DNA from: Sphingobacteriales bacterium
GTDB taxonomy: Bacteria; Bacteroidota; Bacteroidia; Chitinophagales; Chitinophagaceae
Assembly: GCA_023251215.1 (NCBI GenBank)
Contig: JAHEZF010000020.1
Location: 1-13,998, forward strand
DNA length: 13,998 nucleotides
Reading direction: 5' to 3'
Of this stretch, positions 1,867-9,435 are shown in pieces. A model generated the notes under the pieces. That model was not told the origin of the DNA. It worked only from the letters and a program-made list of their open reading frames with translations, and did no database searches. Each line of letters starts with the position of its first letter. Positions within the stretch are counted from its first letter, which is position 1. Made by a program: the position numbers and the translations under genes.

Positions 1867-1954
1867 AAATACCGAATATCGAACAGGGAATAATGAATGT
1901 CGAAGTATTTTAACTTCATCATTCATCATTCGGTGTTCCATGTTCATTATTTTT
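1867..1954. repeat. Inverted pair of AT-rich operon repeats (nuoL/nuoM gap)
   Basis: The left arm (about 1867-1905) reads CCGAATATCGAACAGGG and so on. The right arm (about 1914-1950) is an imperfect reverse complement, separated by only a few bases. Both arms share the period of GAA-containing words (cgaa, tgaa) seen at 4391-4429, 4851-4891 and 8228-8320. Transcribed from either strand, this would fold into a long imperfect hairpin within the nuo mRNA. Confidence 0.75.
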
Positions 1955-1956
1955 AA

Positions 1957-2118
1957 ATGACTATCCGCATGAATGACCCTTTGTGATCTTTGTGTAATAC
2001 TTCGTGTCCTCTGTGGTAAAAAAATACAGAAACCACAAAGAAGCACAGAGAAAATACAGCACAAAGAACTCAAAGAACGTTTCGACTTTGAACATAGTTC
2101 ATATATGCGGATAGTCAT
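1957..2118. mobile_element. MITE-like 162-bp element with 14-bp perfect terminal inverted repeats
   Basis: The left terminus 1957-1970 (ATGACTATCCGCAT) is exactly the reverse complement of 2105-2118. With two mismatches next to it, the similarity extends to about 22 bp. The interior is a second inverted repeat made of words such as CTTTGTG, CCTCTGTGG and ACCACAAAG (arms about 1978-2019 and 2032-2080). An identical 8-mer, TATTTTTA, flanks both ends at 1948-1955 and 2120-2127, one base away from each terminus. It could be a target duplication, or coincidence in AT-rich DNA. No credible protein is encoded. The right end sits just beyond the nuoL stop codon, so the element separates nuoL from nuoM without breaking either gene. 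Confidence 0.65.
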
Positions 2119-4072: not shown

Positions 4073-4384
4073 TTAATACTTCAATTCTTCTGCGTTTTCT
4101 ACGTCAATAGAATTATGGCTACGGTATAAATTTATAATGATCGCAATAGCCACTGCTGCTTCTGCAGCAGCAATAGCGATGATAAATACCGTAAAAAACA
4201 AGCCATCCATTTTCCCCGGCCACAGATATTTATTGAATGCAATGAAATTCAGGTTAACACTGTTTAAAATCAATTCTATGCTCATGAGCATGGTAATAAG
4301 GTTCCTTCTTGTCAGGAAACCATATACGCCGATAAAGAACAGTGCAGCGCTGATAAATAGAATATGGTATAATCCAGGTTGCAT
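4073..4384 (-). CDS. nuoK: NADH-quinone oxidoreductase subunit K
   Basis: This 103-residue protein has three membrane helices. The conserved helix-2 glutamate is in MLMSIELILNSVNL (about residue 37, equivalent to Glu36 of E. coli NuoK). A second acidic residue lies in helix 3, in AAAEAAVAIAI (about residue 75, equivalent to Glu72). These two glutamates lie on the central hydrophilic axis that carries the conformational or electrostatic signal through the membrane arm. Length is normal for the family. The stop codon is one base from the nuoL start. On the other side, the normal neighbour nuoJ is displaced by about 450 bp holding a repeat arm and a four-helix-bundle gene. Confidence 0.97.
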   Translation of the reverse strand: MQPGLYHILFISAALFFIGVYGFLTRRNLITMLMSIELILNSVNLNFIAFNKYLWPGKMDGLFFTVFIIAIAAAEAAVAIAIIINLYRSHNSIDVENAEELKY

Positions 4385-4390
4385 TAATTT

Positions 4391-4429
4391 AATATCGAAT
4401 AATGAACAAAGAATGATGAATATCGAATT
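4391..4429 (+). repeat. AT-rich operon repeat, left arm beside nuoK
   Basis: The plus strand reads ATATCGAATAATGAACAAAG and continues GAATGATGAATATCGAA. It is the inverted partner of 4851-4891 and lies in the 52 bp between the four-helix-bundle gene stop and the nuoK start. Confidence 0.75.
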
Positions 4430-4436
4430 GGCATCC

Positions 4437-4835
4437 TCATTTCTTTAATCTTTTTTCTTTTCTTTCTGCTTCCATGTTTTTCTTCGTTGTTTCAATGCTT
4501 TTTACAAAAATTGAAATCAACTCATTACTTTCAATCAATCCCTTTTCCAGGATTTCTATTTTATCTGTTAAAGGCACTTTTTTGATTATCCTCAAAGCAT
4601 TTCTGGATTCCCTCAATTCCTTGAGTAAAATTTTAAGTTTATGAATAAAGTCTGCCCTCGATTCCGCACTTTGTGCTTCTCCATAATGTAGCGCCGGGGA
4701 AGTTCCGGATCTTACTAATTGTCCGGCTAAATGATTTCCTGCTCTGGTATTAAATAAACTTTCTGCAATCTGTATAACTAAAACAGCAAAATCAATTAAC
4801 CGTTCTTCAAGGTCATATTTTCTTTTTTCTTCCAC
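4437..4835 (-). CDS. Four-helix-bundle protein of the 23S rRNA intervening-sequence (IVP/S23) family, inserted in the nuo operon
   Basis: The 132-residue product contains the family's characteristic stretches YDLEERLIDFAV (about residues 7-18), NTRAGNHLAGQLVRSGTSPA (helix 1/2 loop) and YGEAQSAESRADFIHKLKI, then LKELRESRNALRII. It ends in a lysine-rich tail. These place it in the four-helix-bundle family first met as the protein encoded by intervening sequences in spirochaete 23S rRNA. Its fold is also shared by the accessory variability determinant of diversity-generating retroelements. No enzymatic role is established and none is visible here. It is not a complex I subunit. The start is GTG at 4833-4835, one base after the nuoJ stop, and no ATG exists nearby. 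Inverted AT-rich repeats flank it at 4391-4429 and 4851-4891, which suggests arrival as a cassette. It would be co-transcribed with nuo. Confidence 0.88.
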   Translation of the reverse strand: MEEKRKYDLEERLIDFAVLVIQIAESLFNTRAGNHLAGQLVRSGTSPALHYGEAQSAESRADFIHKLKILLKELRESRNALRIIKKVPLTDKIEILEKGLIESNELISIFVKSIETTKKNMEAERKEKRLKK

Positions 4836-4836
4836 T

Positions 4837-5397
4837 TTACAACTTATTTAGTTCATCATTCGATGTTCCTTGTTCATTATTCGTTATTCTCTTCGGGCTT
4901 CTCATGGCAATGACAATACACCCAATCATGGCTGCAAGCAGCAGCATACTCACTACTTCAAAGGGCAGTGCATAACCTCCCTCAGTTACGCTTAGCATTT
5001 TCCTGCCGATATCAGATACTCCTGTATTCACGGGTTCATCCGCCGATTCGTAAAATGTATTCTGGTACACTTGCAGCATGGTCAATCCAAAACCACAAAA
5101 TACAGCCAAGGCTGAAAATATTTTTCTGCCGATCTTTTGTTTAAGTAATTTTTCTCCCGCCTGCTGGGTAAGAAAAATGGAGAAGATGATAAGCACAACA
5201 ATACCGCCAACATATACTACGATCTGTACCGCCGCTATAAACTGGTAATTAAGCCAGAAATAAATACCAGCAATACCTATTAAAGAGAATAATAAATAAA
5301 TGGCAGCCCGGAAGATCTGTCTTGTGGAAACAGATAACAATCCGCTTACCAGTGTAAGAGCCGCTAATAAATAAAATATGACAGTAGAGCCATTCAT
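4837..5397 (-). CDS. nuoJ: NADH-quinone oxidoreductase subunit J, with repeat-derived C-terminal tail
   Basis: This 186-residue protein has five predicted membrane helices. It includes the NuoJ signature around AAVQIVVYVGGIVVLIIFSIFL (in two pieces, about residues 54-75), the helix-3 region with the pi-bulge glycines that move during catalysis. Helix 5 is VSMLLLAAMIGCIVIAM. After that helix the protein should end soon. Here it continues as ITNNEQGTSNDEL (about residues 171-183), which is a direct translation of the AT-rich repeat at 4851-4891, before stopping at 4837-4839. The start overlaps the nuoI stop by one base (TAATG arrangement), so the two are probably translationally coupled. The four-helix-bundle gene follows one base later. 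Confidence 0.96.
   Translation of the reverse strand: MNGSTVIFYLLAALTLVSGLLSVSTRQIFRAAIYLLFSLIGIAGIYFWLNYQFIAAVQIVVYVGGIVVLIIFSIFLTQQAGEKLLKQKIGRKIFSALAVFCGFGLTMLQVYQNTFYESADEPVNTGVSDIGRKMLSVTEGGYALPFEVVSMLLLAAMIGCIVIAMRSPKRITNNEQGTSNDELNKL
4851..4891 (-). repeat. AT-rich operon repeat, right arm inside the nuoJ 3' end
   Basis: The reverse complement reads AACGAATAATGAACAAGG and continues AACATCGAATGATGAAC. It is the inverted partner of 4391-4429, and it overlaps the nuoJ coding region, where it is translated as about 13 residues of low-complexity polar sequence. Confidence 0.78.
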
Positions 5398-6963: not shown

Positions 6964-7058
6964 AAATGATAAATATAAAATCTAAAATGATGAATGAAAA
7001 AGTTGAATACACTATTCCGTTTTATATTTTACATTCAATATTTTGCATTTTACATTTC
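6964..7058. repeat. AT-rich imperfect inverted repeat in the nuoD-nuoH gap
   Basis: The left arm (about 6964-6996, with words such as ATATAAAATCTAAAATG) and the right arm (about 7019-7058, with TTTTACATTCAATATTTTGC) are approximate reverse complements built from AAAATG/AATATA words. It fills almost the whole 101-bp gap where nuoE, nuoF and nuoG would normally be. It differs in sequence from the TCGAATAATGAAC-type repeats elsewhere in the operon. Confidence 0.5.
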
Positions 7059-7060
7059 TA

Positions 7061-8224
7061 TTATCTGTCTATATCTGGTATCACCAAATCCAGTGTTCCC
7101 ATCGCTGCAATCAAATCACCGATCTTCCCGCCCCGTATCATATGATCCAGTGCAGATAAATTGGAAAAGCCGGGTGAACGAAATCTAATTCTGTAAGGAG
7201 TAGCTCCCCCCTCGCTGACAATGTAAACACCAAATTCGCCACGGGCTGTTTCTACTCTTGAATAAAATTCTCCTTTGGGCAATTTCAATACAGCTTTTGT
7301 TTTGGCCTGGAAATCGCCTTCAGGAATATTATCAATTAACTGTTCAATTATTTTTATGGATTGTCGCAGCTCCCTTATCCGCACCATGTAACGGGCAAAT
7401 GAATCGCATCCTGTTTCTAAGATTTCTTCAAACTCTACTTTGTCATACACTTCATACGGATACAGTTTGCGGATATCACAACTTGCAGTGCTGCCTCTTG
7501 CTGTTGGGCCGGTACACCCATAAGAAATGGCATCTTCTTTTGAAAGAAACCCAACGCCTTTCATCCTGTTCCGGAAGATCACATTTCCTGTTACCAGTTC
7601 ATCGTATTCATCCACTTTTGATTTGAACAGAATAATAAAGTCTTTTACTCTTTTCTGAAAGTTGGGATGAATATCCGCCATCACACCTCCGGGTACCATA
7701 TAATTCATAGTTAACCTTGCGCCGCAGGTTTCTTCCATGATGTCATTGATGGTTTCCCTTTCACGAAAAGCATGAAAGAATGGAGTAAAGGCACCGAGGT
7801 CCATGGCCATGGCTCCCCACCACAATTCGTGAGAAGCAATACGGGTCAGTTCATCCATGATCACCCTGATAACCTGTGCCCTTGGGGGAATTTCTACCTG
7901 CAACCCTTTTTCTACACATAAGGCACATCCATGATTATTGATGTGTGAAGAAAGATAATCCATCCGGCTGGTAACATAAATGAACTGGCGGTAAGTGAGG
8001 CTCTCACACATTTTTTCAATAGAACGGTGGATAAAACCGAGATGAGGCTCTACTTTTTTAATTGTTTCGCCATTCAAAGTAATTACCAAATGCAATACGC
8101 CATGTGTAGCAGGATGCTGGGGGCCTACATTAATAACGAATTCGGCCCCCCCGCCCTCCTCTAAGTCTCCCCCACCGGGGGAGACTTCCGAACTGTCCTT
8201 AATTATTTCAGTTTGCCTGTACAT
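7061..8224 (-). CDS. nuoD: NADH-quinone oxidoreductase subunit D (49-kDa-type), with repeat-encoded N-terminus
   Basis: NuoD lines the quinone site together with NuoB. The conserved start of the core is VGPQHPATHGVLHL, whose second histidine corresponds to the quinone-head-group histidine. HRSIEKMCESLTYRQ follows, carrying the tyrosine-containing loop near the quinone. YVTSRMDYLSSHINN and the terminal DLVIPDIDR also fit the family. The frame is open up to an ATG at 8246-8248, but those first eight codons lie inside the AT-rich repeat, so I place the start at the ATG 8222-8224 (387 residues). Between this start and the core lies DSSEVSPGGGDLEEGGG, encoded by a GC-rich palindrome. No other ATG precedes the core, so the repeat must be translated. 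nuoC is a separate gene upstream, not fused as in E. coli. Confidence 0.95.
   Translation of the reverse strand: MYRQTEIIKDSSEVSPGGGDLEEGGGAEFVINVGPQHPATHGVLHLVITLNGETIKKVEPHLGFIHRSIEKMCESLTYRQFIYVTSRMDYLSSHINNHGCALCVEKGLQVEIPPRAQVIRVIMDELTRIASHELWWGAMAMDLGAFTPFFHAFRERETINDIMEETCGARLTMNYMVPGGVMADIHPNFQKRVKDFIILFKSKVDEYDELVTGNVIFRNRMKGVGFLSKEDAISYGCTGPTARGSTASCDIRKLYPYEVYDKVEFEEILETGCDSFARYMVRIRELRQSIKIIEQLIDNIPEGDFQAKTKAVLKLPKGEFYSRVETARGEFGVYIVSEGGATPYRIRFRSPGFSNLSALDHMIRGGKIGDLIAAMGTLDLVIPDIDR
8147..8198 (+). repeat. GC-rich palindromic repeat in the nuoD N-terminal coding region
   Basis: AAGTCTCCCCC (8163-8173) and GGGGGAGACTT (8177-8187) form a perfect 11-bp stem with a three-base loop. 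The 35 bases 8158-8192 match 9335-9369 in nuoB at about 30 positions by eye, in the same orientation and the same reading frame. Confidence 0.85.
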
Positions 8225-8227
8225 TAA

Positions 8228-8320
8228 ATAATATCGAATAACGAACAAGGAATGATGAACATCGGATTATAAACGACCTGAACTTCATTATTCGATATTC
8301 CTTGTTCTGTGTTCATTATT
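8228..8320. repeat. Inverted pair of AT-rich operon repeats (nuoC/nuoD gap)
   Basis: The left arm 8228-8265 reads ATATCGAATAACGAACAAGG and continues AATGATGAACATCGG. The right arm 8281-8320 is its approximate reverse complement, ending at the nuoC stop codon. The short loop (about 8266-8280) holds no gene. It has the same architecture as 1867-1954, and the same repeat family as the arms bracketing the four-helix-bundle gene. Confidence 0.8.
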
Positions 8321-8807: not shown

Positions 8808-9401
8808 TTAACTCCCTTTCATGGGCTGGGGGTTCCTTATCTGCTCTCTTGTTAATCCGCTTTTTATTTTCTGCTGCAGGGTAATCAATGAATGCAATAA
8901 TGCTTCAGGTCTGGGCGGGCATCCAGCCACATATACATCCACTGGTATCACATGGTCAGCGCCTTTTACTACTGAATATGTATTGTAGAAGAATGGTCCG
9001 CCACTGATAGCACAGGCTCCCATGGCAATCACATATTTTGGGTCAGCCATCTGATCGTATAATCTTTTTAGTACCGGCGCCATTTTGTTGACAATGGTTC
9101 CGGCAATTATTATGACATCGGCTTGCCGGGGTGTGGCACGGGCCACTTCAAATCCAAATCTTGAAAAATCGTATTTAGCCGAGGCTACTGCCATCATTTC
9201 AATACCGCAACAACTGGTGGCAAATGTTAAGGGCCATAAAGAGTTTGATCTTGCCCAGTTGATAACATCATCCAGTTTGCTGAGCACTATGCCGCCACCT
9301 GCAGTTTCATGTATCTGGCCGGGAAAGGAAGCCCCCTCTAAATCTCCCCCTGCGGGGGAGACTTTAGAAGATTCATTTAATATGTTTGTTTCTTTATCCA
9401 T
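8808..9401 (-). CDS. nuoB: NADH-quinone oxidoreductase subunit B (N2 cluster), with repeat-encoded N-terminus
   Basis: This 197-residue subunit binds the terminal 4Fe-4S cluster N2, which passes electrons to quinone. The four ligands are visible: adjacent Cys64-Cys65 in [11 protein letters not shown], Cys130 in MGACAISGG and Cys161 in [12 protein letters not shown]. The core begins near [20 protein letters not shown] (about residues 35-54). Residues 11-23, [13 protein letters not shown], precede it and are encoded by a GC-rich palindrome almost identical to the one in nuoD. The start used is the ATG at 9399-9401. The only other plausible start I see before the core is a GTG at codon 39, which would remove the repeat peptide but also trim the N-terminus. 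It lies between nuoA (68 bp upstream) and nuoC (28 bp downstream). Confidence 0.96.
9331..9374 (+). repeat. GC-rich palindromic repeat in the nuoB N-terminal coding region
   Basis: TCTCCCCC (9343-9350) and GGGGGAGA (9354-9361) form a perfect 8-bp stem around a three-base loop, extendable with one mismatch. It reads in frame as [13 protein letters not shown] and is the sister of the copy at 8147-8198. Confidence 0.85.
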
Positions 9402-9435
9402 TTGCTCGCTCCATCTTTCAGGTTTGTGTGTTGGT

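Follow-up and report, generated by a model that had tools for sequence, protein, structure and literature searches.

An intervening-sequence protein gene between inverted heptad arrays in a Sphingobacteriales nuo operon, and a probable class of cassettes whose arms follow the protein lineage

Proteins of the S23 or intervening-sequence protein (IVP) family have solved structures and no known function, and a pentameric toroid has been reported for the Xanthomonas member (accessible text of PMC4990558). The same source describes the intervening sequence (IVS) of Coxiella 23S rRNA as having a 28-bp terminal stem and an S23 open reading frame (ORF) with GACAGAT heptamers in tandem ahead of it, and its authors repeat the older idea that the ORF once served mobility (PMC4990558). 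Heptamers of the types GGGAATC and GGGGA(C/T)T in Xanthomonas and Nostoc are mostly intergenic and form 70 inverted pairs in Xcc and 75 in Xac; the accessible part of that report finds them generally unassociated with mobile elements and leaves their role open (PMC4692102). The TAACTGA direct repeats of the Beggiatoaceae are likewise intergenic heptamer arrays, scattered across phyla and, in the accessible text, without an evident transfer mechanism (PMC4679880). Here we describe an IVP gene that lies, with heptad arrays on both sides, inside the complex I (nuo) operon of a Sphingobacteriales bacterium (assembly GCA_023251215.1), on a stretch of 13,998 nt (contig G000:C198, JAHEZF010000020.1) that is called the window throughout.

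The home genome measures 2.02 Mb in 345 contigs and is 72% complete. The complex I genes occupy the minus strand of the window, and Pfam assigned 12 of 14 window ORFs scanned: 11 to complex I or oxidoreductase families and one to the IVP family, with two left without a family. The IVP ORF reached 37.7 bits against PF05635 (curated cut-off 33.8) and 68.2 bits against TIGR02436 (cut-off 24), which places it in the IVP/S23 family as an intact gene; modelled as a monomer, it is predicted to adopt the four-helix bundle of that family. These scores and the positions of its neighbors uphold the original prediction that an IVP gene splits nuoJ from nuoK. The locus is made up as follows.

4437..4835, minus strand: IVP/S23-family gene (predicted four-helix bundle), 132 aa, GTG start
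4837..5397, minus strand: nuoJ (PF00499), C-terminus RITNNEQGTSNDELNKL largely array-encoded
4073..4384, minus strand: nuoK (PF00420), the next operon gene
4851..4889, minus strand: 5' arm, GAAYRNY units on the coding strand, contained in the last part of the nuoJ frame
4390..4429, plus strand: 3' arm, inverted heptad array immediately ahead of nuoK

The gene had been described as bracketed by an inverted AT-rich repeat. The inverted arrangement stands, at 4390-4429 and 4851-4889; the description as an AT-rich repeat does not, since both arms are built from 7-nt GAAYRNY units in tandem. The two arms are complementary at 80% over 30 nt and at 91% over 23 nt, and 2000 mononucleotide shuffles of the flanking sequence never equaled their inverted-match score of 19; the lag-7 scores of the flanks are 20 and 19 of 28. 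Most of the final NuoJ residues are supplied by the 5' arm, and comparison with the C-termini of relatives shows that the insertion altered the NuoJ C-terminus in the window. The IVP protein itself is under purifying selection, with pN of 0.15-0.24 against pS of 0.74-0.94 (saturated) in all seven pairs compared.

We then assembled IVP genes from relatives and, for further ones, 60 surrounding stretches of about 8-16 kb. The set spans 67 genomes and falls into 58 site clusters; these loci were drawn from the best E-value-ranked matches, and strong family members are over-represented among them. The 124 non-redundant genes were reduced to 121 by removal of short or N-rich flanks, 609 other genes of the 60 stretches served as controls, and inverted scores were computed on 160-nt flanks at thresholds of 10-20, of which 14 was chosen for reporting. 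A score of at least 14 was found for 107 of 121 IVP genes and 23 of 609 controls (81/121 and 8/609 at 18 or more). The original prediction had raised the possibility that such repeats are just as common beside unrelated genes, and among the control genes they were far rarer. When upstream and downstream flanks were re-paired between loci only 15 of 361 combinations reached 14, and with one gene per site cluster the count was 51 of 58. Periodicity was also compared: lag-7 autocorrelation in both flanks (at least 17 of 28) was present in 70/121 IVP genes and 21/609 controls, and lag-8 autocorrelation in 15/121 and 3/609, while lags 4-6 and 9-12 gave at most 2/121 IVP genes. The best lag among the 107 elements was 7 in 88 and 8 in 16 (104/107 together).

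A wider profile scan of genome contigs yielded at least 79 loci, mostly from Bacteroidota. Genes were kept if both flanks had at least 120 nt and no N run, by which some loci were lost and others gave two genes; 67 of 84 IVP genes and 4 of 86 controls scored 14 or more. Beyond the Bacteroidota, inverted arrays were found in Sphaerospermopsis (GGGAATA, score 44), Geobacter (ACTCGGA, 26), one member each of Planctomycetota (18) and Patescibacteria (24) and a Fibrobacter genome (18), together with an octad array in Desulfosarcina (23). Eight non-Bacteroidota genomes were searched for additional IVP genes, and arrays stood beside most of those inspected. Some loci depart from the simple arrangement: the arrays up- and downstream of the IVP gene at L163:7980-8360 are direct by eye and not inverted, and in L195, L198, L232 and L258 two IVP genes with separate units lie only a few kb apart. 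A gene at L133:5345-5653 that is GIY-YIG nuclease-like by eye also stands between long inverted flanks, with a score of 44.

The repeat unit goes with the protein. For 107 elements with a score of at least 14 we counted a unit as shared when the local score was at least 14. Between different genomes and different sites, sharing rose with protein identity: it was found in 58 of 4650 pairs below 0.40, in 44 of 702 pairs between 0.40 and 0.55, and in 51 of 99 pairs with 0.55 or more. Pairs from the same genome below 0.55 identity shared it in 0 of 84 cases, and pairs at the same site (shared neighbors) below 0.5 identity in 0 of 59. The Mantel correlation of 0.318 compares with maxima of 0.090 in 2000 free permutations and 0.262 in 2000 within-genome permutations (0/2000 each). 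The unit tracks the protein lineage more than the genome or the site, and between some related proteins, such as L069 and L073, a shared unit is reversed in polarity. The home genome has four IVP genes, all with inverted short arrays on both sides, and their units are GCTNNAN, ATTTNAA, AAATNNA and GAAYRNY (both by eye; L002 has an inverted score of 13, just under the threshold). The expectation that identical repeats flank other family members, or all of them, is thereby rejected. What remains of the proposal that a cassette is the route by which these genes spread is the unit of arms and gene, with inverted arrays at 107/121 and 67/84 genes; a repeat common to the family is not part of it.

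The same GAAYRNY arms also occur as pairs that enclose no gene. Empty inverted pairs had been placed at 1867-1954 and 8228-8320, and both are present with slightly different ends; a third pair, of another family, is probable. In the window they are the following.

1867..1958 (arms 1867-1906 and 1922-1958), no strand assigned: gene-less inverted pair of the GAAYRNY family, nuoM/nuoL spacer
8229..8320 (arms 8229-8268 and 8284-8320), no strand assigned: gene-less GAAYRNY-family pair, inverted, flanked by the genes of the 49-kDa and 30-kDa subunits
6964..7057, no strand assigned: probable gene-less pair of the AAATNTA family (the L004 IVP gene has this unit), flanked by nuoH and the gene of the 49-kDa subunit, weak

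Folded as single-stranded DNA, the first two are more stable than their shuffled versions, with z of -3.47 for the first and -3.10 for the second. The third, with a pattern match at 6971-6988 and arms judged by eye, is graded weak because its folding is not significant (z -0.65). Across the home genome the pattern GAAYRNYGAAYRWYGAA has 25 matches and its reversed control none; grouped, the matches make up eight gene-less inverted pairs (two of them in the window), the gene-bearing cassette and some unpaired arrays. When the 16 gene-less arms and the two cassette arms are aligned, the order of heptads is kept and an outer boundary is common to them by eye, with one arm (L006) truncated; the grouping of empty and gene-bearing pairs into one family therefore holds, as had been predicted. 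The inner end GAAGT is found in 12 of the 16 gene-less arms and in neither cassette arm. Terminal inverted repeats with a common boundary (by eye) in several copies are one feature that the family has in common with miniature inverted-repeat transposable elements or transposons. A CACAGAG/CTTTGTG inverted pair at 1954-2121, nested in a 23-nt outer inverted repeat (1954-1976/2099-2121), adjoins the first gene-less pair and resembles by eye the repeats of GxxExxY type described below. A palindromic CTCCCCC...GGGGGAG element has two copies at 8155-8225 and 9332-9402, 72% identical, through which the complex I ORFs for the 49-kDa and 20-kDa subunits gain similar extensions at their N-termini.

Arrays are also found away from IVP genes. 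The 60 stretches (957,833 bases) contain 150 lag-7 and 36 lag-8 segments, other lags giving 0-17, and after shuffling in 200-nt blocks 3 and 0 remain, respectively. Of these 186 segments, 75 are no more than 250 nt from an IVP gene and 111 lie elsewhere. An IVP arm of the same genome is matched by 47 of the 109 testable distant arrays (8.8 expected from other genomes), and for 34 of the 111 a second, inverted array stands no more than 250 nt away.

Junctions of nuoJ and nuoK that lack the insert, which the original prediction had proposed to look for, were found. We examined 12 of the 29 loci other than our own, the remaining 17 being less similar, and an insert of IVP size was absent from all 12 (L091-L102, gaps of 2-102 nt); the junction was also empty in three of five further genomes and occupied in two, G044 and G110. 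In the closest relatives (L091 and L092), as well as in G150 and G138, the nuoK start overlaps the nuoJ stop and the junction is free of arrays. A tree of nuoJ and nuoK does not group the three genomes with an occupied junction (home genome, G044, G110). In G138 the same IVP lineage sits, by eye, at the nuoM/nuoN junction and the nuoJ/nuoK junction is empty; GAAYRNY units in both orientations just past its nuoK (L346, about 1785-1860) may be a gene-less pair, as judged from pattern matches only. Another site varies within one genus: the spacer before a gene that is sugar-nucleotide transferase-like by eye holds an octad-flanked IVP gene in G039, the same IVP gene cut by the contig end in G168, a different, frame-broken IVP gene with heptads in G194, and 22 nt only in G195. 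No arrays were seen at the empty nuoJ/nuoK junctions that were read closely (L091, L092, L345, L346) or in the G195 spacer. Both neighbors were called for 59 IVP genes. The spacer is co-directional for 53 of these, with 51 genes in sense and two in antisense, compared with 112 and 43 for small control genes in such spacers.

We are highly confident that this is a real, widespread cassette whose arms are coded by lineage. It is IVS-like and about 0.5 kb long, holds one IVP gene flanked by inverted 7-nt-unit arrays (about 30-40 nt each), and would insert in the sense direction into operon spacers. Our main reading goes further: the IVP protein itself would recognize its own arrays as DNA and so mark the cassette ends, borrowed host enzymes would copy these ends, with or without the gene, to new sites, and the gene-less pairs would be derivatives of a selfish IVS-like cassette. 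From the sequence comparisons we assign a probability of about 0.58 to the IVP protein recognizing its arrays and driving their spread.

Several observations weigh against that reading. The ORF at 4437-4835 matched PF05635 alone in Pfam, with no nuclease or transposase domain, HUH (Y1) included. No target-site duplication was recognized by eye in comparisons of the window cassette, the gene-less pairs and the relatives, the relatives being too diverged, and no recent transposition event was caught, even close elements being diverged. A strong sense bias is unusual for a DNA transposon; the ratio of 51 to 2 fits co-transcription or an RNA step, and may point to an RNA-level process. The tie between unit and protein is not absolute: at identities of 0.55 or more, one of five same-genome pairs and 45 of 66 same-site pairs share the unit. 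Flanks below score 14 were seen in 14 of 121 genes and in 17 of 84 of the wider sample; two Xanthomonas IVP genes have arrays upstream only (scores 10 and 9), and scores are low in Sphaerospermopsis (L260, 12; L288, 9) and Desulfosarcina (L273, 9). In the home genome the L001 unit has three matches, all at its own gene, with no gene-less copy, and the L004 unit has nine against four in the reversed control, a weak excess; that every resident unit has gene-less copies is rejected. Five near-identical Calothrix copies (L261, L267, L275, L281, L286; 99.5-99.95%) belong to a repeated element of at least about 2.07 kb, each with an IVP gene, which is therefore a passenger there; we did not count these copies as proof of self-mobility. 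Finally, GxxExxY genes (TIGR04256; loci L303-L332, e.g., L303, L309, L325) have inverted flanks of 14 or more in 18 of 27 cases (27 of 30 loci counted, two having no recognized ORF and one a short flank), so having inverted flanks does not by itself set IVP genes apart and it is the 7/8-nt arrays that are characteristic. These genes failed as a negative control. Their flanks are of another style (ACCACAGAGGCACAGAG, CGCAAAGACGCTAAGG) without period 7, and they form a second, unrelated class of small-gene cassette.

How far do other explanations account for the same data? The element might act at the RNA level, the arms pairing in the operon mRNA and RNase III cutting the stem as in 23S rRNA IVSs, with insertion perhaps RNA-templated through an Avd-like recruitment of reverse transcriptase. 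The sense bias noted above would suit it. Upkeep of an RNA stem should favor G.U mismatches on the sense strand, and this was not observed: arm mismatches in 174 elements comprise 198 of wobble type and 223 of A.C type, with no sense-strand G.U bias, so selection for an RNA stem is rejected or at least weakened, and we think this explanation unlikely. Ordinary horizontal transfer and recombination could instead spread the IVP genes, with arrays arising later by polymerase slippage and fold-back synthesis and marking permissive spacers. Repeats of heptamers are over-represented as a class, and work cited in the accessible parts of PMC4692102 and PMC4679880 ascribes them to slippage; 111 of the 186 segments in 0.96 Mb lie away from IVP genes. 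If this were so, unit and protein lineage should be unlinked across sites, whereas the observed link is strong, and arrays should also stand beside other small accessory genes, whereas lag-7 scores of 19 or more occur in 0 of 27 GxxExxY genes on either side; we consider this explanation distinctly improbable.

The arrays might also have been there first, as target sites with the IVP gene homing into the loop. The gene-less pairs of the same family and boundary in the home genome would be expected from this, and the closely read empty junctions, being free of arrays, argue against it strongly enough that we give it very little credence. Chance or the composition of AT-rich intergenic DNA can produce some inverted flanks, as 68 of 609 control genes with scores of 12 or more show; it is next to impossible as a general explanation, given that lags 4-6 and 9-12 show nothing comparable, that block shuffling leaves 3 lag-7 segments against 150, and that the pattern persists with GC-rich units in Geobacter.

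If each IVP protein binds its own word, the cassette would be a minimal selfish element with effects on the form of operon spacers and, as in NuoJ, on the C-termini of proteins. A lineage-specific word would tie an IVP family without a known function to heptamer repeats without an explanation. One may speculate, with the odds rather against it, that IVP proteins are an unrecognized multi-phylum class of repeat-addressed mobile cassettes, in which a word of 7 or 8 nt, particular to each lineage, is read by the protein, written as inverted end arrays and seeded in gene-less copies; the heptamers of Xanthomonas, Nostoc and others and the 23S rRNA IVSs would then come from the same machinery, possibly teamed, in the manner of Avd, with a reverse transcriptase or other polymerase by which insertion takes the sense direction. 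We recognized no report that links IVP genes outside rRNA to heptad arms in the accessible literature, from which subscription journals are mostly absent, and this suggests that the widespread IVP cassette with lineage-specific heptad arms outside rRNA is barely described.

Among known systems, REPIN/RAYT has one gene per repeat family and non-autonomous inverted copies elsewhere. The IVP cassette resembles it in this division of labor and differs in having no recognized nuclease domain and in arms built as 7-8 nt tandem arrays. Diversity-generating retroelements have an accessory protein, Avd, accompanied by a reverse transcriptase gene, and flanking heptad arrays are not part of the described elements; the IVP gene of the window has nuoJ and nuoK as neighbors, and a Pfam scan, which covered 14 window ORFs but neither the other ones nor the wider genome, recognized no reverse transcriptase. 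A close likeness is to the 23S rRNA IVSs of Coxiella and Leptospira, which share the protein family, a length of about 0.4-0.5 kb, an ORF in sense and its enclosure by complementary termini (accessible text of PMC4990558). In contrast to these, the window cassette lies in a protein-coding operon and not within 23S or 16S rRNA (the window has no Rfam family at gathering score), carries heptad arrays on both sides, and belongs to a class whose unit varies by protein lineage. The TAACTGA arrays of the Beggiatoaceae differ in being mostly direct and upstream of genes, and their accessible description states no IVP link (PMC4679880). The heptamers of Xanthomonas and Nostoc are like the IVP arrays in their 7-nt tandem units, intergenic position and many inverted pairs, and differ in that the accessible text names no partner protein (PMC4692102). 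A Xanthomonas IVP gene (L271) does carry a GGGATTC-type array, upstream only, and its genome (G186) has 487 overlapping matches to the pattern against 0 for the reversed control.
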